A stretch of 34,940 nucleotides of DNA from an uncultured Candidatus Actinomarina sp. (lineage in GTDB: Bacteria > Actinomycetota > Acidimicrobiia > Actinomarinales > Actinomarinaceae). How positions within the stretch are numbered: position 1 is the stretch's first letter; every line of letters begins with the position of its first letter. The notes under the pieces are model-generated. The model saw only the letters and a program-made list of their open reading frames with translations. It was not told the origin of the DNA and did no database searches. Location: positions 1-34,940 of the forward strand of contig CACOKA010000008.1 of assembly GCA_902627635.1 (NCBI GenBank). Direction: 5' to 3'. Shown piece after piece: positions 8,251-30,031 of the stretch. A program made the translations under genes and the position numbers.

Positions 8251-8734
8251 TTCCTGGAAACCCATTCAGAGCAATTTTTTTAATTGCTTCTTTTCTCTCT
8301 TTTCTAGATAGAGATGATAGTAAAAGCTTGCCCTTTAAATGGTCATATTCATGTTGAAGAACTCTACCCATAAGCTCCTCCCCTTCATATGTAATATCTT
8401 CACCATTTATATTTTGGCAGAAGATTTTTGAATATTCCGGTCTTTCAATTTCCCAATAATAACCAGGTAATGAAAGACACCCCTCTAAAAATACTGCAGA
8501 CCCCTCAACTTGAATTTTCTTTGGATTTATCGCTACTTTTGGACCTTCACCAGCATCAAATACAAAAATGTTTTTATTTATACCTATTTGGGGAGCTGCT
8601 AAACCCACCCCAGGTGCTTCATACATGATTTTTATCATTCTCTCTGATAATTTTTTTAATGCTTCATCAAATTCAGTAATATTTACTGATTTAGATTTAA
8701 GGGAAGGATGACCAAAAGTTACAATTTCATTCAT
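8240..8734 (-). CDS. def: Peptide deformylase
   Basis: Metalloenzyme that removes the N-formyl group from nascent proteins. All three family motifs are intact in 164 aa: GVGLAAPQ (42-49), EGCLS (84-88, metal ligand C86) and HEYDH (128-132, ligands H128 and H132, catalytic E129). The start shares one base with the priA stop (TAATG), and the 3' end overlaps fmt. The def-fmt pair is a very common linkage. Confidence 0.96.
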   Translation of the reverse strand: MNEIVTFGHPSLKSKSVNITEFDEALKKLSERMIKIMYEAPGVGLAAPQIGINKNIFVFDAGEGPKVAINPKKIQVEGSAVFLEGCLSLPGYYWEIERPEYSKIFCQNINGEDITYEGEELMGRVLQHEYDHLKGKLLLSSLSRKERKEAIKKIALNGFPGNDL

Positions 8735-10089
8735 TATATAGAAGTCACTTTTCTTGGTTCATACTGTAATAGTTTTGAATACATATTTGTAATTTCATTG
8801 TAATTAGTATCTTTTGATAAATTTATATTGATTTCGTATTCATATAGATTATCAACCTTTTTAGGTCCTAAAATATATTCATTTTCATATTGAATTATTG
8901 AATCGGTAGAAAATCTAAAAACCTTATGATTAAGATTTGGTCCCCATTTATTCCTAGAAACTAGCTCTTCTTTGCTCCATTTTGTTATGTTTGAATTCTT
9001 TAAGGACTCTTTCAAATTTATATCTTTTGTTGTAAGTATGATAGTAAGACTATTATTTTGCTTTGATCTTTCTATTTGTCGTAACAGATAAATTAAACGT
9101 TCAGAATTTAATTTACCTTTGAAAGATATTGTTGGGTTTACTAATATATTTAAATCGTATGAATCATTTTCACTTTTTACAGTTACATATTCATTAAGTG
9201 ATTCATTTAAAATTTCGTCTTGAAAAAATAATTTTAAATTTTTATCAGTATGCTTTGTTTTAAACAATTCAATACAATCTTGTAAAGAGTTGCCATGATA
9301 AATTTGTACATTACTTAGTTCAGGAGTTTTATAATGTTCAATCTTATTAAAGAAATTAAGAGATGGATATTCATTGTAATAATGATAATTACCTCCAAAG
9401 TATTTATTTTTAAGGACTGACAATTCAATGATATTTAAAGAATTAAATTTTGGTAAGTTGTAAGAATAATCATTGGTATCAAAAAAATGATAATTAGTCG
9501 TTGGATGTGGCTTTATTTTTAAAAAATTGTTTGCAAGAAGTATGCAATTGTCAAATTTATTAACTGTACTTAATGCGTTTTGAATTTCATCTTTGCCTCC
9601 AGTTTTTTGATAAAAATTTATTTTTATCCCTTTTTTTGTGAGATATGATTGTAAATTTTTAGTTGATTTTAATGAAGGAGTAAAGATTACATTTTTAGAA
9701 TTTGTGGATATTACTTTGTCGATCTCTGTATTGTGTTGAATACTTAACGAATTATGTTTAATCTTTCTATCTAATTTAAAATTCACATCCTTATATAAAT
9801 TGAATATTAAAAAACCAATATTTAAGTAATAAGAAACTGCAACGTGTTTTAAAAAAAGTAACTGATCTTGATCTAACTTACTAATAATTCTTTCAACAGG
9901 TTTTAAAGTTTTAATTTTTAAATTTTTATTATGTATATTCACAACAACAGCAGTTTTTTTTCTATTTCTAAAATTCACAGAAACTAATGAGCCTATATCA
10001 ATTTTATTAGATAGATTTTTAGGTATTGAATAAGTAAAAAGTTGAAACTTATATGTGTTATTTGATATTATTTCTACATCAGCAAACAA
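8734..10089 (-). CDS. priA: Degenerate PriA-like primosomal protein
   Basis: Identified by its N-terminal DNA-binding domain and its place between coaBC and def/fmt. Residues 1-60 (FADVEIIS, TYSIPKNL, GSLVSVNFRNRKKTAVVV) match the PriA 3'-end-binding domain. It has 451 aa against ~650-730 for active PriA. I find no Walker A GxGKT, no DEAH-type box and only two Cys, so neither the helicase motor nor the zinc-binding insertion can be functional. Actinobacterial PriA is known to have damaged helicase motifs; this copy is further reduced. The start is TTG, one base after the coaBC stop, with no other start near the conserved N-terminus. The function may be structural, recruiting replication-restart factors, but that is inference. 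Confidence 0.72.
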   Translation of the reverse strand: MFADVEIISNNTYKFQLFTYSIPKNLSNKIDIGSLVSVNFRNRKKTAVVVNIHNKNLKIKTLKPVERIISKLDQDQLLFLKHVAVSYYLNIGFLIFNLYKDVNFKLDRKIKHNSLSIQHNTEIDKVISTNSKNVIFTPSLKSTKNLQSYLTKKGIKINFYQKTGGKDEIQNALSTVNKFDNCILLANNFLKIKPHPTTNYHFFDTNDYSYNLPKFNSLNIIELSVLKNKYFGGNYHYYNEYPSLNFFNKIEHYKTPELSNVQIYHGNSLQDCIELFKTKHTDKNLKLFFQDEILNESLNEYVTVKSENDSYDLNILVNPTISFKGKLNSERLIYLLRQIERSKQNNSLTIILTTKDINLKESLKNSNITKWSKEELVSRNKWGPNLNHKVFRFSTDSIIQYENEYILGPKKVDNLYEYEININLSKDTNYNEITNMYSKLLQYEPRKVTSI

Positions 10090-13171: not shown

Positions 13172-14244
13172 TAGGGAATTACACCTTCCTCTTTTGCTTT
13201 ATTTTTCATGTTAATAAAGTCTGTGTAGTCATTTGTAAATGACATTTTTCCATTTTTATCCGTCAGTAAGTAGTATATAAAATCTGTCTCTGGTGTTTCA
13301 AATACAGCAATTAATGATCGCTCACCAAATCCAGAAATAGGTGTAGGCGGTAAACCTGTATATTTATATGAGTTATACGGTGATTCTACTTGTAAATCGA
13401 TCAGTAATACTTGAGACTTTCGCTCTTGAAGAGCATACAGTATCATCGCATCAATTTGAAGTAACATATCATCATACAATCGGTTTTTTATAACAGATGA
13501 AACAAGTGGTCTGTCTTCTTGTAGTTTCGATTCGGCCTCAACAAGACTAGCTACTGCAAAAAGTTCATTAGTAGAATTTATCCAATTTGGTATTGAGTAG
13601 GTGACTAATAATCTATCAATTACAGTTTCGAGTTCATTTATTAAAATTTGTAAGATTTCTTCACCAGATGCATCTAAAGCTATTTGATATGTGTTTGGAT
13701 ATAGAAGACCTTCCCAATTTTGCAACTTTGATACATCACCTAAATAAACATATTTACTTTCGACATTTCCAGATAACAGTGAATTCGTTAGTAAATCTAC
13801 ATCGTAACCAGTTTGAGAAGAGATAGATTCAATTGTTTCATTTATCCAAAGTCCTTCCGGAATAGTGATTGTGTAAGTTTTTAATGGGGGGCCTTTTAAT
13901 AAAATATTACTTATCTCTTCGAACTCTAATTTGTTTGAAATTTCATATTCTCCAGCTCGTAATTTATCGCCAAGATTCTCATTCCTTAGATAAATTTCAA
14001 AAGCAAGTGAAGACGATATAATTCCTTCCTGGGCAAGTATTGAAGAAATCTGTGCCGCCGAGGAACCTTGAGGAATATCTATTAAAATAATTGATTCTTC
14101 CGTATCGTTATTATTTGAAACGATATTCGCTGTTTGGTCAATTGATAAGGCTATATTAGAGGCAAAACTTATTGCAATAAATATTGCAAATATTGTAAAT
14201 ACAACAGAAATAACAAGCCGATTTTTAAAGTAATAATTAATCAT
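13171..14244 (-). CDS. mltG: Endolytic murein transglycosylase MltG
   Basis: Membrane-anchored enzyme that cleaves nascent glycan strands and is thought to end peptidoglycan polymerisation. A single N-terminal membrane helix (~9-31) is followed by a LysM-like domain (~50-117, with IPQGSSAAQISSILAQEGII) and the YceG catalytic domain. The catalytic Glu is E236 in ASLVEAESK; the conserved VIKNRL, LLQIDAMILYAL and TGLPPTPISGFG segments follow. 357 aa is normal. It overlaps ruvX by four bases; the alaS-ruvX-mltG order is common in actinobacteria and firmicutes. The aroE/aroK/aroB genes that usually separate mltG from efp are missing here. Confidence 0.94.
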   Translation of the reverse strand: MINYYFKNRLVISVVFTIFAIFIAISFASNIALSIDQTANIVSNNNDTEESIILIDIPQGSSAAQISSILAQEGIISSSLAFEIYLRNENLGDKLRAGEYEISNKLEFEEISNILLKGPPLKTYTITIPEGLWINETIESISSQTGYDVDLLTNSLLSGNVESKYVYLGDVSKLQNWEGLLYPNTYQIALDASGEEILQILINELETVIDRLLVTYSIPNWINSTNELFAVASLVEAESKLQEDRPLVSSVIKNRLYDDMLLQIDAMILYALQERKSQVLLIDLQVESPYNSYKYTGLPPTPISGFGERSLIAVFETPETDFIYYLLTDKNGKMSFTNDYTDFINMKNKAKEEGVIP

Positions 14245-14615
14245 ATTTTTAGATATGAATTTAGTATTTCTAATGCCGCTAAGTCATCATTTCTTACTGA
14301 ATTATCATTTGTTAATTTTGAAGTCATTCTTTCATCAATTTTATGTATTGGAATATTTGCTATAGATTTTAAATCATTCTCAATAAATTCATCTACAACA
14401 TTACTCATGCGTGTTTTATGAGCATTTAATCCTATTGGATAACCAATTACAATTTCATCTATTTTGTGTTCTAATAGCGATTGTTTAATTTCTTCTACAA
14501 CATCTATAGACTTGCTATCTAATACTTTATAAGCATAAGGAGAAGTTATTGAATTCTTTTTTAATGCGAGACCAATGTAACGTTCACCGTAATCAATAGC
14601 AATTATATTTTTCAC
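14241..14615 (-). CDS. ruvX: RuvX/YqgF-type RNase H-fold nuclease
   Basis: YqgF-family protein, implicated in 16S rRNA 5'-end processing and proposed as a Holliday junction resolvase. The 124 aa protein keeps the RNase H-fold acids: D8 in IIAIDYGERYIGLA, the IDERMTS motif and the Asp of NDDLAALEIL, with EIVIGYPIG in the middle. It starts with GTG, overlapping the alaS stop as GTGA, as in many alaS-yqgF pairs. Because ruvC is not at its usual place in this window, this gene is one of two possible junction resolvases here, but its resolvase activity is not established. Confidence 0.92.
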   Translation of the reverse strand: MKNIIAIDYGERYIGLALKKNSITSPYAYKVLDSKSIDVVEEIKQSLLEHKIDEIVIGYPIGLNAHKTRMSNVVDEFIENDLKSIANIPIHKIDERMTSKLTNDNSVRNDDLAALEILNSYLKI

Positions 14616-22807: not shown

Positions 22808-23713
22808 TTATTTATTAATTATCCTTGATAAAAATGGAATCGTTACAAATATTGAGCTGTAAGTTCCCGATATAATTCCAATAAACAAAGGTAAAGCAAA
22901 ATCTGTTAGAGTCCCAGATAACCCAATTATGTTACCTAAAAATAATATTGAAGCTATTGGTACAGCTGAAGTGATTGATGTATTGATACTCCTCATTAAG
23001 ATCTCATTAAAAGTTTTATTTAAAGTCTTTATGGATAAATTACTTTCTTTGTTCATTCTTTGACTATCTCTTAATTTATCAAAAAGTATGACTGTATCAT
23101 ATAGTGAATAGCCAAGAATAGTTAAAAGTGCAATCACTGTTGATGGCGTTATCTCAAAATTCAATAATAAATAAATCGATGTACAAATTAAAAGATCATG
23201 AATCAATGCTATTAAAGCAACAATAGAATATCTAAACTGGAATCTAATTGATATAAGTAAAACTATAAATGATAAAAATATTACAAGTGCTCTAATCCCC
23301 TTAGTTGTGATTTCTTGTCCAAATGTGGGACCTACACGTTGGAATTCAATATCATTACTATCGACATTGAATTTATTTGCAAGATAATTTAGGAATTCAG
23401 TTTCTTGTGATTGAGAACCTTCATCAGCTCTAAAAAGTACTGTATCTGAGTTTTCATATGTTTGATATCTTGAGACTTCTAAAATGTTATTCCTTAAAAC
23501 TTCTTCAATATCAGGTTTTGAATAATCACTTGTCAGCTGATATGTGGTTCCACCTGTAAAATCAATAGAGAAATTTAAGTTTAATATACCAATTGCAGCA
23601 CAGATCAATACAGTTAAGAAAATAATTATCTCAAAAATAAACACCCTCTGAAGAAATCTACGTTTACCGTAAAAATCAAAATTTGTGTTACCTAAAAATA
23701 ATTGTTTAAACAT
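22808..23713 (-). CDS. secF: Protein translocase subunit SecF
   Basis: Inner-membrane partner of SecD that uses the proton gradient to help SecYEG export. The 301 aa protein has an N-terminal membrane helix, SIDFTGGTTYQLTSDYSKP at the start of the periplasm-side domain, QRVGPTFGQEITTKGI before helix 2, and a bundle of five further helices with IALIHDLLICTSIYLL and the conserved GYSLYDTVILFDKLRD. The C-terminal RSINTSITS and LPLFIGIISGTYSSIFV segments complete the family. The start overlaps the secD stop by 8 bases. Confidence 0.96.
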   Translation of the reverse strand: MFKQLFLGNTNFDFYGKRRFLQRVFIFEIIIFLTVLICAAIGILNLNFSIDFTGGTTYQLTSDYSKPDIEEVLRNNILEVSRYQTYENSDTVLFRADEGSQSQETEFLNYLANKFNVDSNDIEFQRVGPTFGQEITTKGIRALVIFLSFIVLLISIRFQFRYSIVALIALIHDLLICTSIYLLLNFEITPSTVIALLTILGYSLYDTVILFDKLRDSQRMNKESNLSIKTLNKTFNEILMRSINTSITSAVPIASILFLGNIIGLSGTLTDFALPLFIGIISGTYSSIFVTIPFLSRIINK

Positions 23714-25151
23714 TAGTTATATCCTTATTTTTTATTGGAAACAAAAATCTAGTGTTATTAATATTTGATACAACAACAGGAACTACATTCCTTGTGTAAA
23801 GTCGTGTAAATAATAAATCAAATATTGTTGCAATACCAAGTGCCAATGCAAAACCGCGTATTGGACCTACCGCTAATATATAAAGAAGGAAAGCAGCAGA
23901 TAATGAAACGAAATCAGCTGTTAAAATTGTCTTCCATGATTCATCTACAGCTTTATTTGCAGCAAATTCAAATGATCTTCCAACCTTTATTTCATCTTTT
24001 AGTTTTTCAAAAGTAACAATATATGAGTCAGCAGAAAGTCCAATTGAAACAATAATTCCAGCGATACCTGCAAGTGTCAATGTAAAGCCTTGTAAATCAC
24101 CAAGTATTGAAATTACTGAGTAAAACAAAAGACCAAACATTGACAATCCAAAAACCGAAATGAATCCAAGAAATCTGTAGTAAAGAATAATTATGATAGA
24201 GATTATTACTAAACCAATTAAACCAGCTTGTAATCCAAGATTTAAAGTATCTTCTCCTAAGCTAGCAGAAACCTTCTGAATGGATGATCTTTCAAATGAC
24301 ACTGGTAATGCACCATATCTCAAAATTACAGCAAGATTATTAGCAGATTCACCGGTATCCGTATTTCCCATTGATATCGCAGCGGTCCCTCCTGTAATTC
24401 CGACATCTGGACTAACATTTAAAGCAATCCCAGGTGCTGAGACTATTTCACCATCTAAGACAATGGCTAATCTTCTTTTGTCACCAGTCTCTCTTGCTAA
24501 TTGTTTTGTTAAATCTGTAAATTTAATAGCTGAGGAGTCTTTAAATTCTAAAGAAACTATCCATTCATTCTCAGGGTATGCTGCAATTGCATCTTCAATA
24601 TCATTACCGGTTAAGACCGCAGGACCTAATTTATAGATTACTGGATAACTAGGTGTGATCGATAAAAGATAAGATTCAGTGTTCGGATCATCTTCTATTG
24701 TTAATCCAAATTCTTCATCAACTCCTGGGGCTGAAACTTTAATAGGATTCTCAGGATCATCAGGATTTGGAAGATACTCAAATGCAGGTGAAATACCAGT
24801 ATCAAATGATGACGCTAATACAGGTCTAAAAGTCAATAAACCAGTAGCTCCTAATGCTTCAATTGCACGTTCTTGATCCGTAACACCTGGAAGCTGTACT
24901 AATACAGCATTATTTCCACTGATGGAAATTTCTGGTTCTTGTACATCACCAAATGCTTCGATTCTTGTTCTCATAATTTCAACAGATTTTTCTAAAACTT
25001 CTGGATCTGTGTTTTCATCAGCAGTAAGAATTACTGATATCCCTCCTTGTAAATCTAATCCAAGTTTTGGTGATAGAGAGGATTGATAAACGTATATAAA
25101 TAAACCAATTGCGAGGATAGGTAGAAAAAGAAATTTAAGGATTCGTTTCAT
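23706..25151 (-). CDS. secD: Protein translocase subunit SecD
   Basis: Larger subunit of the SecDF export motor. Order over 481 aa: N-terminal membrane helix (~4-24), SPKLGLDLQGGISVIL, the P1 base with ENTDPEVLEKSVEIMRTRIE, a P1 head with PVIYKLGPAVLTGNDIEDA, LAIVLDGEIVSAPGI, and a five-helix membrane domain with LTLAGIAGIIVSIGLSADSYI and GFALALGIATIFDLLFTR. The SADSYIV segment replaces the common AVDANVL but keeps the functional Asp. It overlaps yajC by four and secF by eight bases. Confidence 0.96.
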   Translation of the reverse strand: MKRILKFLFLPILAIGLFIYVYQSSLSPKLGLDLQGGISVILTADENTDPEVLEKSVEIMRTRIEAFGDVQEPEISISGNNAVLVQLPGVTDQERAIEALGATGLLTFRPVLASSFDTGISPAFEYLPNPDDPENPIKVSAPGVDEEFGLTIEDDPNTESYLLSITPSYPVIYKLGPAVLTGNDIEDAIAAYPENEWIVSLEFKDSSAIKFTDLTKQLARETGDKRRLAIVLDGEIVSAPGIALNVSPDVGITGGTAAISMGNTDTGESANNLAVILRYGALPVSFERSSIQKVSASLGEDTLNLGLQAGLIGLVIISIIIILYYRFLGFISVFGLSMFGLLFYSVISILGDLQGFTLTLAGIAGIIVSIGLSADSYIVTFEKLKDEIKVGRSFEFAANKAVDESWKTILTADFVSLSAAFLLYILAVGPIRGFALALGIATIFDLLFTRLYTRNVVPVVVSNINNTRFLFPIKNKDITNV

Positions 25152-25399
25152 GAAATACTATTAATAAATGATGTCTTAATTTTTATTTCACCATTTTTGA
25201 GAACTAATGTAACCGTATCATCACTTATAGATGTAACTCTTCCATAGATACCAGAATCTGTTATTACATCTTCGCCGATTTTGAGGTTTTCTACGAATTC
25301 TTGGTGTTTTTTATTTCGTCTTCGTTGAGGTAAGTATAAAACTGCATAAAATACTATAAATACAAAAACTAAGGGCAATAAAGATACTACGTCACTCAT
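25148..25399 (-). CDS. yajC: Preprotein translocase accessory subunit YajC
   Basis: Small single-pass membrane protein that associates with SecDF. The 83 aa chain has one N-terminal helix (~6-24), the basic stop-transfer YLPQRRRNKKHQEFVENL and the family motif IGEDVITDSGIYGRVTSISDD. The ATG overlaps the tgt stop by 8 bases and the stop overlaps secD by four, giving the standard yajC-secD-secF unit. Confidence 0.95.
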   Translation of the reverse strand: MSDVVSLLPLVFVFIVFYAVLYLPQRRRNKKHQEFVENLKIGEDVITDSGIYGRVTSISDDTVTLVLKNGEIKIKTSFINSIS

Positions 25400-26468
25400 T
25401 TATAAATTCCTTTTTAAAACTTTCAAAACTTGAGTTTAATATACTTTCTCTAGCTTCTTCAATAATTTGTTCAGTTTGAATTATATTATGAACAGTTAAA
25501 TATAACCAAGAAGTTGTATTTTCATTTATAAAAAGATGTCTTAAGTAAGCTTTTGAATAATTTAAACAGGCAAAGCATGTGCAGTTGGTATCTATAGGAT
25601 TTTCATCATATTTGAATTTTTGATTTTTTATATTGATATATGAATTACGAGTAATTAATTTACCGTGCCTTGCGAGTCGTGCAGGCCAAACGCAATCAAA
25701 CATGTCAATACCAGAATCAATCAAATCAATTAAACCTACGGTGTCACCTAAGCCCATAACATATCTTGGCTTATCTATTGGAAGTATTGAATGTAGATGT
25801 TCTACGACCTTTTTTCTTTCAGTACTTGTTTCGCCGATTGCTAATCCACCAATAGCATATCCATCAAATTCTAATTCGATCATTGATTTTGCTGAAGTTT
25901 CTCTTAAATCAAGATTTAAACCTCCTTGAACTATGCCAAACAAATCTTGTTTATTGTTTTTATGTACACTTTTTGCTTTTTCAGCCCACTGACTTGTTAT
26001 TTCTATAGCTTTCATTTGATCATCATATGATCTGTCATAATCAATTAAATAATCAAATATCATTGCAATATCACTGCCTAAAAGATTTTGTGTGTTGATT
26101 GATTCTTCTGGAGTCATTTTAAAAAAGGATCCATCATATACATTTTTAAATTCAATACCATCATTTAATAATTTAGTTGGCAGTGACCAAGCTTGAAATC
26201 CTCCAGAGTCAGTAAGTATTAATTTATCCCAGTTCATAAATTTATGTAAACCACCTAAATCATTTATTAACTGCGCTCCTGGTCGTAGATGTAGATGGTA
26301 TGCATTTGCTAGAAGAATTGAGGTCTTATCTAGGTATTGATGAGGAGTAGATTTAATTGCACCTCTTGTAGCAACAGGCATAAATGTAGGAGTCTGAACT
26401 TCAATATTATTTACAGACAATATCCCAGCCCGAGCATTTTTATCATTTGAAATTAATTTATAGGACAT
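25392..26468 (-). CDS. tgt: tRNA-guanine transglycosylase (queuine/preQ1)
   Basis: Exchanges guanine-34 of GUN-anticodon tRNAs for preQ1 in queuosine synthesis. Key residues over 358 aa: D87 in LTDSGGFQ, GIVQGGLNLDLRE, GYAIGGLAIGE, catalytic nucleophile D258 in FDCVWPARLARHG, and zinc ligands C296, C298, C301 and H327. In the base pocket, D139 (Z. mobilis D156) is kept, but the position of Z. mobilis Cys158 is Leu (IFDYL against AFDEC), while the residue equal to Val233 is Ile, which leaves no space for queuine. It overlaps queA by 11 bases and yajC by 8. Pairing with queA argues for preQ1, not queuine salvage. Confidence 0.94.
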   Translation of the reverse strand: MSYKLISNDKNARAGILSVNNIEVQTPTFMPVATRGAIKSTPHQYLDKTSILLANAYHLHLRPGAQLINDLGGLHKFMNWDKLILTDSGGFQAWSLPTKLLNDGIEFKNVYDGSFFKMTPEESINTQNLLGSDIAMIFDYLIDYDRSYDDQMKAIEITSQWAEKAKSVHKNNKQDLFGIVQGGLNLDLRETSAKSMIELEFDGYAIGGLAIGETSTERKKVVEHLHSILPIDKPRYVMGLGDTVGLIDLIDSGIDMFDCVWPARLARHGKLITRNSYINIKNQKFKYDENPIDTNCTCFACLNYSKAYLRHLFINENTTSWLYLTVHNIIQTEQIIEEARESILNSSFESFKKEFINE

Positions 26469-27468
26469 TGTGTTTTATTTTAAACATTACTGCATCACCA
26501 AAACTGAGGAACTTCATGTTATTTTCTAAAGCAAAAGTATAAAGTTTTTTCCATGAATCTCCATAGATAGCATGAACAATCGATAATAAAGAACTCTTTG
26601 GAGCATGAAAATTTGTAATCAGATAATCAGCAACATTAAATTTGAATCCATTTGTAATGAACAAATTTGTTTTTCCTTTAAACATAGAGGTTTTGAATAC
26701 ATGCTCTAATGTTCTTAATGTTGTCGTTCCAACACAGACAATATTATAACCGTCTTCTTTTTTGCTAATTATTTCATTGTAGGTATCCTCATTAATTTCA
26801 TAATCTTCAGAATGTATATCATAATCTTCTATGTATTCAGTATTGATAGGTTTGAATGTACCAAGGCCAATATCTAGATTTAGAAATCTCAGATTAATAT
26901 CATTTTTTTCAAGCTTTTGAAATAAATTTGGAGTGAAATGAAGTGCAGCTGTAGATGCAGCGACGGAAAAACCATTCTTACTGAAAAAAGTTTTATAGTG
27001 TTCATATTTATAATCCTTATCCTCAATGTAAGGTGGCAAAGGAGTTGAACCATAAATTTTGATTATTTCATCTAAAGGTAAAGAAAATTCTAATCTGAAT
27101 CCATCGTTTACATTTTTGATAATATTTATAGAGAATTTTTCAAGCTCAATATGTTCTCCAACTTTCTTTGCACCATTAAATTTAAGTAAACAATCTGCTG
27201 AATATTCGTCAACTTTCCTCAGTATGAATATTTCAACGTTTCCGTTAGTATGTTTTTTATTTGTTTTCACTCTTACATCTATAACTTGAGAATTATTAAA
27301 GACTAGTAACGAACGTTTTGGAATTACATTATGTATACTTTCAAATTTATAAATTTTCATACTTTCTGCATCAAGAATTTGAGAATCTTCTGGGTTTATG
27401 TATGGATCTTGAGCTATCGAGGATTTAGGAAGGTGATAATTTAAATTCGAAATATGGGTTTTGTTCAA
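26458..27468 (-). CDS. queA: S-adenosylmethionine:tRNA ribosyltransferase-isomerase
   Basis: Adds the ribosyl moiety of AdoMet to preQ1-tRNA to form epoxyqueuosine. At 336 aa it is close to the usual 340-350. Family segments: LNYHLPKSSIAQDP at the start, PLPPYIED, VAASTAALHFTP, LDIGLGTFKPI, NFHAPKSSLLSIVHAIYG and KFLSFGDAVMF near the end. The start is TTG directly after the stop of the upstream nuclease; no ATG lies close enough to keep the conserved N-terminus. The genes for preQ0/preQ1 synthesis and for epoxyqueuosine reduction (queG or queH) are not in this window. queA-tgt-yajC-secDF is an old, widespread order. Confidence 0.94.
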   Translation of the reverse strand: MNKTHISNLNYHLPKSSIAQDPYINPEDSQILDAESMKIYKFESIHNVIPKRSLLVFNNSQVIDVRVKTNKKHTNGNVEIFILRKVDEYSADCLLKFNGAKKVGEHIELEKFSINIIKNVNDGFRLEFSLPLDEIIKIYGSTPLPPYIEDKDYKYEHYKTFFSKNGFSVAASTAALHFTPNLFQKLEKNDINLRFLNLDIGLGTFKPINTEYIEDYDIHSEDYEINEDTYNEIISKKEDGYNIVCVGTTTLRTLEHVFKTSMFKGKTNLFITNGFKFNVADYLITNFHAPKSSLLSIVHAIYGDSWKKLYTFALENNMKFLSFGDAVMFKIKHNVL

Positions 27469-27822
27469 TTACTTATTTAAAAGTTTAATAAAAAGTTCAT
27501 ATGACATTGACACTACTTCTGGCATTCCATCATTAGTCCGCCTCTTATTGTCACCCTGTCTCTTAAGTTTTTTCCAAAATAATACAGTGTTTTCATCGTT
27601 TGACTTTTCAATTGCTTTACCTAGTGACTGATGTAAATTTAGATTTTGTCTCGATTTCGCTTCAATAAAATACTCTTCACCGTCAACAAACAATTGTATG
27701 TCACCCAAATCATTAGAACCACCTTCAGCAAAACGTTGAGCTTTCATATTTGAATTATCGTTCAATCTTTTTACGATATTAGATTCGTAAGTAGTTCCCT
27801 GTTTTTTAGCTTTATTAACCAC
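27469..27822 (-). CDS. PD-(D/E)XK nuclease, phage-type Holliday junction resolvase-like
   Basis: A 117 aa protein with the nuclease pattern E13 (GTTYESNIVKRL), R30, GGSNDLGDI with D41, and IEAK with E54 and K56, then a conserved-looking NLHQSL helix. This E-D-ExK arrangement, with the later LFWKKLKR strand and MSYELFIKLL end, resembles the small Holliday junction resolvases of actinophages and the archaeal Hjc group. The identification is from motif reading, so another restriction-like nuclease activity remains possible. It sits between yebC and queA, where ruvC-ruvA-ruvB would normally be. The GTG start has no clear Shine-Dalgarno, and the stop abuts queA. Base composition is like its neighbours. 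Confidence 0.7.
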   Translation of the reverse strand: MVNKAKKQGTTYESNIVKRLNDNSNMKAQRFAEGGSNDLGDIQLFVDGEEYFIEAKSRQNLNLHQSLGKAIEKSNDENTVLFWKKLKRQGDNKRRTNDGMPEVVSMSYELFIKLLNK

Positions 27823-27841: not shown

Positions 27842-28585
27842 TTATTCTGTTATTGCTTTTTCTAATAGTTTGTTATCAATATCAAAATTTGCATATACAT
27901 TTTGAACGTCATCTAAATCTTCTAATGCTTCTATCAACTTTGACAACATATTAAATTTTTCAATATCTAAATTTACAGAACTGGATGGTAAATAAGCAAC
28001 TTCGGAATTTACTAAGTTAAAACCTGAATTTCTAAATAATTGATCTATTTTCTGGAATTCAGTAGGCTGAAATTCAAAAGTAACACCAGTTTCATTTTCC
28101 TGAATGTCTATACAATTATTGTCTATTGCAAGATCTATTATCTCTTCTTTATACTCATCAAATTGAAATATTGCTTTTCTTGAAAATAAGTAATTAACAC
28201 TTCCAGGAGAGCCGGTATTCCCATCATATTTATTAAAAGTTGCTTTTACATCTGATGAAGTTCTATTTCTATTGTCAGTAACACATTCAACTAATATTGC
28301 AACACCATTAGGTCCATAACCTTCATAAGTAATCTCATCAAATGATTCAGTTGATGAGTCACCAGACATTCTTTTTAAAGCATTATCTATATTTGAATTG
28401 GGTACTGAATTTGATTTGGCTTTACTAATAGCTTGATAGAGTGCGGCATTGTTATTTGGATCAGCACCGCCATTCTTTGCTGCAACTTCGATACCTCTTA
28501 TTAATTTGGCAAATAATTTTCCTCTTTTAGCATCATTTGCACCTTTTTTTCTTTTTATCGTTGACCACTTAGAGTGACCTGACAT
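27842..28585 (-). CDS. yebC: YebC/TACO1-family protein
   Basis: Member of the YebC family, long annotated as a transcriptional regulator and more recently linked to relief of ribosome stalling. The 247 aa protein opens with the diagnostic MSGHSKWSTIKRKKGANDAK, followed by RGKLFAKLIRGIEVAAKNGG, DNALKRM, YEGYGPNGVAILVECVTDN and GSVNYLFSRKA. It overlaps pdxT by 17 bases, the longest overlap in the window, with AAGGA placed before its ATG inside pdxT. The pdxS-pdxT-yebC order is actinobacterial; ruvC normally follows. Confidence 0.95.
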   Translation of the reverse strand: MSGHSKWSTIKRKKGANDAKRGKLFAKLIRGIEVAAKNGGADPNNNAALYQAISKAKSNSVPNSNIDNALKRMSGDSSTESFDEITYEGYGPNGVAILVECVTDNRNRTSSDVKATFNKYDGNTGSPGSVNYLFSRKAIFQFDEYKEEIIDLAIDNNCIDIQENETGVTFEFQPTEFQKIDQLFRNSGFNLVNSEVAYLPSSSVNLDIEKFNMLSKLIEALEDLDDVQNVYANFDIDNKLLEKAITE

Positions 28586-29147
28586 TTACACCGTCCTTAA
28601 GGAAACTACTTAACCAATTTAAATAAACATTATCATTTGTTAATTCTGGATGAAAAGAAAGACCAACAATATTATTTTCTATAACACCAACTACTTCATT
28701 TTCAATTGTTGCTATTGGTGATACTGAATCTTCATAAGACAGAATTTTGGGAGCTCTTATGAAACAATACATTTCTTTATTACCCAGTAAGTCAACGAGT
28801 CCTTCAAATGATTGATTTTGGCGACCGTATGCATTTCTTTCAACTACTGTATTTAATACTCCCAATGACGTTTCACCATCTATTATGTCTTTTGCTAATA
28901 GGATTAAACCAGCACAAGTTCCCAATGTTGGAATACCGCTTTCAATTAATTTTTTTAACCCAGAAAATAAATCATTGTTTTCTTGAATTTTTATCATGGC
29001 TGTAGATTCTCCACCGGGAAGAATTAAAGAATTGACACCAGATAGGTCTGAAGTATCTTTAATTAAAACATAGTCTTGTTCTATTAATTTTAAAGATTGA
29101 ACGTGATCGTAAAAGGAACCTTGAAGTGCTAATACACCAGTTTTCAT
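28569..29147 (-). CDS. pdxT: Pyridoxal 5'-phosphate synthase glutaminase subunit
   Basis: Class I glutaminase that hands ammonia to PdxS. From the chosen ATG it is 192 aa, with [26 protein letters not shown], nucleophile C78 in GTCAG, RNAYGRQ and the H166/E168 pair in SFHPEL; the triad is complete. A TTG two codons upstream is in frame, but the ATG forms a TAATG junction with the pdxS stop and fits the family N-terminus. Its 3' end overlaps yebC by 17 bases. Confidence 0.95.
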   Translation of the reverse strand: MKTGVLALQGSFYDHVQSLKLIEQDYVLIKDTSDLSGVNSLILPGGESTAMIKIQENNDLFSGLKKLIESGIPTLGTCAGLILLAKDIIDGETSLGVLNTVVERNAYGRQNQSFEGLVDLLGNKEMYCFIRAPKILSYEDSVSPIATIENEVVGVIENNIVGLSFHPELTNDNVYLNWLSSFLKDGVNVRSL

Positions 29148-30031
29148 TACCAACCTCTTTTAGCTAATTTCTCCGCTTCATCTAAATCATCTATATTTAT
29201 TCCTACCATTGGTTCACCAAGGTTTTTAGAAACTTCTATGAGTTTTTCTGGATCGTTGTAGTTTGTAGTTGCAATTACAATTGCTTCTGCTCTTTCTTTT
29301 GGATCACCGCTTTTAAATATTCCTGATCCAACAAATACACCATCACAACCAAGTTGCATCATCAAAGCTGCGTCTGCAGGTGTTGCTATGCCTCCAGCAG
29401 CAAAATTTACAACTGGTAGTTTTCCAAGCTCATGAATTTCCTTAACAACATCAAATGGAGCTCTTATTTCTTTTGCTAATGACATCAATTCATTCTGATC
29501 AGATGTTTTGATTTTATTTATGCCATCAGTCATGCTTCTCATATGCTTTACTGCTTCTATAACGTTTCCAGTGCCAGCTTCTCCTTTAGTTCGAATCATA
29601 GCTGCACCCTCACCAATTCTTCTGCATGCTTCACCTATGTCAGTTGCACCATTAACAAATGGAGTTTTTACATCATGTTTATAGATGTGGTTTTTATCAT
29701 CAGCTGGTGTTAAAACTTCACTTTCATCAATAAAATCAATGCCTAGGGATTCTAACATTTGCGCTTCAACAAAATGTCCAATTCGAGCTTTAGCCATAAC
29801 TGGTATTGATACTGAATCTATTACTTCTTGAATTGTTTCAACTGAAGACATTCTTGCTACACCACCTTCTGCACGAATATCAGCAGGAATTCTCTCTAAT
29901 GCCATAACAGCTACTGCACCAGATTTTTCGGCTATAACTGCTTGTTCTGCATTAACGACGTCCATTATTACGCCACCTTTTAGCATTTCAGCTAAACCTT
30001 TTTTTATTTTAAAAGTAGATTCGATTTTCAT
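29147..30031 (-). CDS. pdxS: Pyridoxal 5'-phosphate synthase lyase subunit
   Basis: Builds pyridoxal phosphate from ribose 5-phosphate, glyceraldehyde 3-phosphate and ammonia (the DXP-independent route). The 294 aa TIM-barrel is highly conserved: [20 protein letters not shown] with D24, [13 protein letters not shown] with K81, [10 protein letters not shown] with K149, and [21 protein letters not shown]81 and K149 fall at the same numbers as in Bacillus subtilis PdxS. The ATG lies 14 bases after the pimA stop in an AT-only spacer with no visible Shine-Dalgarno. Its base composition is less AT-rich than its neighbours because of strong amino acid conservation. Confidence 0.97.

Follow-up and report, generated by a model that had tools for sequence, protein, structure and literature searches.

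Organization of the yebC-queA region

The stretch of DNA analysed here, referred to below as the window, is a 34,940-nucleotide contig (G000:C8) from a Candidatus Actinomarina genome that totals 812,883 bases over 41 contigs and is 77% complete. Its minus strand carries genes in the order thrS ... pdxS-pdxT-yebC-X-queA-tgt-yajC-secD-secF-relA, where X (27469..27822) is an open reading frame of 117 amino acids that, by its profile match and predicted fold, encodes a putative Holliday junction resolvase of the PD-(D/E)XK superfamily and of phage type (phrog_244). The upstream flank of X is yebC (27842..28585), itself preceded by the conserved neighbours pdxT-pdxS (28569..30031), and downstream follow queA (26458..27468), tgt (25392..26468), yajC (25148..25399), secD (23706..25151) and secF (22808..23713), all on the minus strand. 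The gap between yebC and X is 19 nt and that between X and queA is 0 nt, the two genes abutting. The neighbouring genes are named from their reading frames in the window and from their positions in relatives, and E. coli YebC matches the counterpart of yebC in the related genome G011. An earlier note on this DNA had described the 117-residue frame, its gene order from yebC to secF and the putative active-site residues E13, D41, E54 and K56, and all of these are confirmed.

Three outgroup loci from the same class were compared with this region. In G001 and G006, the stretch from yebC to queA holds ruvC-ruvA-ruvB; pdxS-pdxT are found upstream of yebC, as in the window, and tgt follows queA. In G013, ruvCAB come before queA-tgt, and there is no yebC within the stretch examined. 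The interval between yebC and queA is about 2.4 kb in G001 versus 373 bases in the window. X sits between the two genes in all 35 named Actinomarina loci, and a closed yebC-queA junction lacking X was seen in no genome of the order. The claim that X stands in place of ruvC-ruvA-ruvB is therefore borne out by the comparison of the locus across related genomes, and the exchange of the three ruv genes for X is common to the order rather than peculiar to the genome from which the window derives. We note that yebC and ruvC are described as sharing an operon in about half of the bacteria that carry RuvC (PMC3403352).

Sequence conservation and distribution of X

X begins with a GTG codon; in its relatives the corresponding start codon is either ATG or GTG. 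The motif of the PD-(D/E)XK superfamily, E...D...(D/E)xK, is conserved in all 36 sequences (the window plus 35 loci), in which residues E13, D41, Q43, E54 and K56 are identical. These include the glutamate of the first helix predicted to form part of the metal site (E13, codon at 27784..27786, minus strand), the predicted catalytic aspartate (D41, 27700..27702, minus strand), and the E-x-K of the motif, which is E54-A55-K56 (27655..27663, minus strand). Of the 630 sequence pairs, 301 had a dS that could be used, and their dN/dS has a median of 0.11 and a maximum of 0.30; a further 12 pairs were too similar, and 317 were set aside as saturated or above 1.5. The GC content of X (0.32) is inside the range of the neighbouring genes, and its GC3 (0.25) is slightly above the 0.16-0.21 of the neighbours compared. 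The invariant residues, the low dN/dS and the neighbour-like GC content therefore indicate that X has long been resident in the genome.

X is present in 37 of the 42 genomes of the order, including all eight of those that are at least 90% complete, although one of the 37 copies (G104) is a fragment at a contig end. Among the five genomes in which it is missing, queA gives no match in three and is truncated by the end of a contig in a fourth. The fifth has a rearranged contig end (L104, G140:C28) with tgt and a queA fragment on opposite strands, which is probably the product of amplification or an assembly chimera. We read all five absences as assembly gaps.

Elsewhere in the class, a search with alignment A1, built from the X of the window together with those of 17 of the 35 loci, matched G016 only (E 1.3e-6). 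This distant relative of X (L070, G016:C107:1256-1447) is in another family of the class, and the genome that carries it also has RuvC. A search of the phylum with alignment A2, which includes ten phage relatives of X, scored up to 11 candidates per genome and found matches in at least two of 396 genomes, namely the window's own genome and G489, where the X-like gene adjoins a reading frame taken for a phage primase/helicase; G016 is not among these matches, though it was found with A1.

Relationship of X to a phage family

The only clear family match of X is to phrog_244, an actinobacteriophage resolvase family whose PHROGs profile matches residues 1-116 with an E-value of 7.3e-12, and which is also matched by all 18 of the A1 members scanned. 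The resolvase name of phrog_244 is an annotation, and PHROGs labels the family 'RusA-like Holliday junction resolvase' although its motifs are those of PD-(D/E)XK enzymes. With Pfam, PDDEXK_15 (PF24608) alone was reported for X at E-values up to 10, at 23.4 bits and thus below its cut-off of 27; it is matched by 18 of 18 A1 members at E-values up to 1, the best being 3.3e-5. The Hjc, RusA and RecU Pfam families were not reported within the same limit, and no NCBIfam model matches X. Because no NCBIfam model matches and the sole Pfam match is below the cut-off, X could easily be left unnamed by automatic annotation.

A direct tblastn search with X matched four Microbacterium phages over 43 residues, and one of these phage proteins used in turn as a query matched 207 phage records, mainly of phages of Microbacterium, Arthrobacter, Curtobacterium and Streptomyces; among the matches listed, 59 of 60 are annotated as Holliday junction resolvases. 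Members of the phage family, such as gp47 of Microbacterium phage Caron, have in common with X both the full-length profile match and a set of invariant residues, which in the alignment of X with ten phage proteins (A2) are M1, G9, E13, D38, G40, D41, K56 and K84. The two differ in setting, in that the phage gene, in the records examined, usually has a primase/helicase gene directly after it, whereas X is a fixed chromosomal gene within an operon-like cluster of housekeeping genes. The glutamate of the E-x-K motif is often a glutamine in the phage family (L060-L069, L074-L084), an active-site variation: Q replaces E54 in eight of the ten aligned phage relatives, the E being kept in two Streptomyces phages, and among ten relatives from IMG/VR six have E at this position and four have Q.

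In a tree of 34 sequences, the 13 Actinomarina X proteins group together as a single clade (100/97), and the other 21 sequences, which are viral or prophage-like, fall outside it; branches are long, and no phage donor can be named from this tree. Searches of IMG/VR with A1 or the window protein as query found no close viral donor, and phage-based queries recovered 11 distant loci. Nonetheless, 207 phage records carry the family versus at least two of 396 genomes of the phylum, one of these beside the phage-like primase/helicase frame, a distribution from which we infer that transfer probably proceeded from phage to host.

Predicted structure of X

An AlphaFold2 model of X made with 26 sequences (pLDDT 84.6, pTM 0.78) has secondary structure elements H4-21, E26-30, E42-46, E49-58, H63-74 and E79-87, the alpha-beta-beta-beta-alpha-beta core of the superfamily. 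The best Foldseek match in the PDB is an archaeal Hjc (1gef), at an E-value of 8.2e-4 the only match below 0.001, with a TM score of about 0.5 and a large rmsd. In a second structural alignment archaeal Holliday junction enzymes take all of the top seven places, with 1gef at Z 8.7 and rmsd 3.0 over 88 aligned residues; archaeal Hjc and related enzymes (1gef, 2wcw and 1ob9) are thus the best fold matches of X. A weak sequence similarity also lines up E13, D41, E54 and K56 of X with the E, D, E and K of Hjc, but X has no Hjc Pfam match and its similarity to archaeal Hjc sequences in the PDB is not significant (E 0.058-0.18, phmmer/hmmsearch). The archaeal link of X consists, then, of the fold together with weak sequence similarity. 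A solved Hjc-type fold is also available from a phage, the Hjc-like resolvase of Thermus thermophilus phage 15-6 (7bgs, 7bnx), which aligns with X at Z 7.0 and rmsd 2.9 over 88 residues, but for which phmmer/hmmsearch gives no sequence match to X up to an E-value of 10.

The earlier note had likened the motif layout of X to that of small resolvases known mainly from phages and archaea and had proposed profile and structure searches. The phage part of that comparison is upheld by phrog_244 and the archaeal part by the Hjc-like fold, while the archaeal connection in sequence is weak, no Hjc Pfam family was found, and restriction enzymes are close behind Hjc in the fold search (R.SwaI, E 1.5e-3). 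Other nucleases appear in the second structural alignment from Z 7.4 downward, and the tool itself warns that Z values below 8 may reflect a common arrangement; the fold alone is therefore no proof of function.

PD-(D/E)XK nucleases serve a variety of purposes, and with restriction enzymes so near in the fold search X could be a structure- or end-specific nuclease with some other task, such as flap or fork processing or that of a domesticated anti-phage nuclease, which merely fills the ruvCAB space while RecG and topoisomerases handle the junctions. However, X occupies the very slot of ruvCAB, it matches over its full length a family annotated as resolvases, it is kept as a single copy through the order under purifying selection, and its top fold matches are all archaeal Holliday junction enzymes. 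We consider such a different task unlikely, and prefer to read X as a resolvase.

Recombination genes in the Actinomarina genomes

We compared 148 genomes of the class, comprising 35 of Actinomarina and 113 others. Matches to the RuvC Pfam family are found in 111 of the 113 other genomes but in none of the 35 Actinomarina genomes, that of the window among them; RuvA is likewise in 110 of 113 versus none of 35, and strong RuvB matches (E 2.7e-36 or better) in 109 of 113 versus none of 35. Eight of the 35 genomes without RuvA and RuvC are at least 90% complete. No ruvC accompanied by intact ruvAB is thus found elsewhere in these genomes, and the displacement of the cellular resolvase that had been suggested for this DNA, perhaps from a phage, is supported by the missing matches and by the match to the phage family.

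Weak RuvB_N matches are present in 34 of the 35 Actinomarina genomes, the best with an E-value of 9.4e-11 and many above the low Pfam cut-off. We traced them in four genomes and reject them as RuvB: the one in G011:C3 is DnaX, as confirmed by tblastn, and others were read by eye as ClpX and DnaA, with frames of 622-624 amino acids taken for FtsH. Outside Actinomarina, RuvC is without a match in G050 and G119, RuvA in G016, G050 and G119, and strong RuvB in G016, G050, G119 and G131. These four assemblies are in 320-370 contigs each, and G050 is nevertheless rated 99% complete; this genome (320 contigs) lacks RuvA, RuvC and strong RuvB, and has no match to X either.

RecA is above the cut-off in 38 of 41 genomes of the order, with no match in the other three. 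RecG is strong (E <1e-160) in 33 of the 35 Actinomarina genomes, the copy in the window's genome lying at G000:C3:21960-23864; in G093 and G116 no match of this strength was obtained. RadA is above the cut-off in none of the 41 genomes of the order, the best score being 31 bits versus a cut-off of 403, and the matches below the cut-off lie either in frames that are RecA, at the RecA match positions, or in frames of 454-467 amino acids. The expectation that branch migration would rely on RecG alone if ruvAB were absent accords with the retention of RecG and the missing RadA.

One genome, G011 (1,100,974 bases, 93% complete), was searched singly with queries from E. coli, from class relatives and from the window proteins. 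The E. coli queries matched RecG and UvrD, as well as the controls YebC and DnaX, and the window proteins matched YqgF, a PriA-like protein and X. Neither RuvA nor RuvC was found (E 1e-3), whether the query came from E. coli or from either of two class relatives; the RuvB queries matched the dnaX locus only, RarA matched the dnaX locus and an FtsH-like frame, and RecN gave a weak partial match. In this one genome the E. coli RadA, RecR, RecQ, YifB and RusA queries were without a match at an E-value of 1e-3. The recombination set of the order is thus unusually small, with no RadA over the cut-off in 41 genomes and no RecR, RecQ or YifB match in G011. The PriA-like protein (window 8734-10089, minus strand) has 451 amino acids and no Walker A motif, and has its counterpart in G011; a smaller and very divergent PriA is mentioned for actinobacteria (PMC1193525). 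A stretch resembling the RecA C-terminus lies inside a 552-residue frame at G000:C2:50579-50737 and is shared by several Actinomarina genomes.

The sole other resolvase candidate in the window is yqgF (14241..14615, minus strand), named by reading. YqgF, present both here and in G011, has in the past been suggested to act as a back-up resolvase (PMC1193525), and might be the junction resolvase of these cells with X as an accessory. This is less likely because YqgF of Deinococcus is described as an RNase that does not act on Holliday junctions (PMC9601230), and we regard a resolving role for YqgF in Actinomarina as very improbable. That ruvABC is present but was missed through incompleteness, as the 77% complete source genome and many partial relatives might suggest, is hardly credible given that none of 35 genomes, eight of them at least 90% complete, has a match to RuvA or RuvC, that the slot is itself sequenced with X inside in 35 of 35 loci, and that the 93% complete G011 yielded neither of these proteins and, with RuvB queries, the dnaX locus only.

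A putative RecA-RecG-resolvase pathway

It appears that the order no longer has the standard RuvABC machinery: there is no match to RuvA, RuvC or RadA and none of strength to RuvB, while RecA and RecG are retained. For X itself there is support from homology, from the conserved catalytic residues, from the predicted fold, from purifying selection and from the exchange at the locus, and on such sequence-based grounds X probably cuts recombination junctions in the stead of RuvC. We favor the explanation that X is a structure-selective endonuclease of the phrog_244 family, captured by an ancestor of Ca. Actinomarinales, most likely from a phage, fixed between yebC and queA in the ruvCAB slot, and doing the job of RuvC with RecG, and we give this a probability of about three in four. 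With somewhat less assurance, we think it likely that a free-living order without RuvABC and RadA resolves its junctions by means of a single phage-derived Hjc-type nuclease of 117 residues in the old ruvCAB slot, acting with RecG in a minimal RecA-RecG-resolvase pathway. In such a pathway RecA would make the joint molecules, and RecG, the sole motor dedicated to branch migration that the searches found, would move or regress the junction; we infer that X, as an Hjc-like dimer and in partnership with RecG, would then cleave it in a metal-dependent manner by nicking opposite strands at the crossover, and ligase would seal the nicked products.

Partial parallels are known. RecU has a PD-(D/E)XK-type fold. 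It takes the place of RuvC's function in Firmicutes and Mollicutes, as X is proposed to do here, but RecU systems keep RuvAB, which Actinomarina also lacks (PMC1193525, PMC3403352); moreover, RecU is rarely beside ruvAB (PMC1193525), whereas X is in the ruvCAB slot. RusA, a resolvase carried by the E. coli prophage DLP12, may depend on RecG (PMC3403352), but X has no RusA Pfam match, the E. coli RusA query found nothing in G011, and in E. coli RusA is an addition to an intact ruvABC, unlike X in Actinomarina. RuvAB with either RuvC or RecU is described as near-ubiquitous in bacteria (PMC1193525), 27 organisms are reported to have RuvAB without RuvC or RecU (PMC3403352), and it has been suggested that prophage proteins might supply resolvase function (PMC1193525). 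The present case is one of non-orthologous displacement of the resolvase in which all three ruv genes are replaced in place by a phage-type gene that is fixed through the order, and we have not met such a replacement in the open-access literature searched.

Strong homologous recombination has been reported in an order-wide survey (PMC7771536), the main text of which, in the portion available, does not mention ruv, resolvase, recA, recG or DNA repair. If our reading is correct, a single phage-type nuclease would be able to stand in for the whole of the standard resolvasome, and this in a strongly recombining marine order; X of Actinomarina makes directly testable whether RecG and a simple resolvase suffice.
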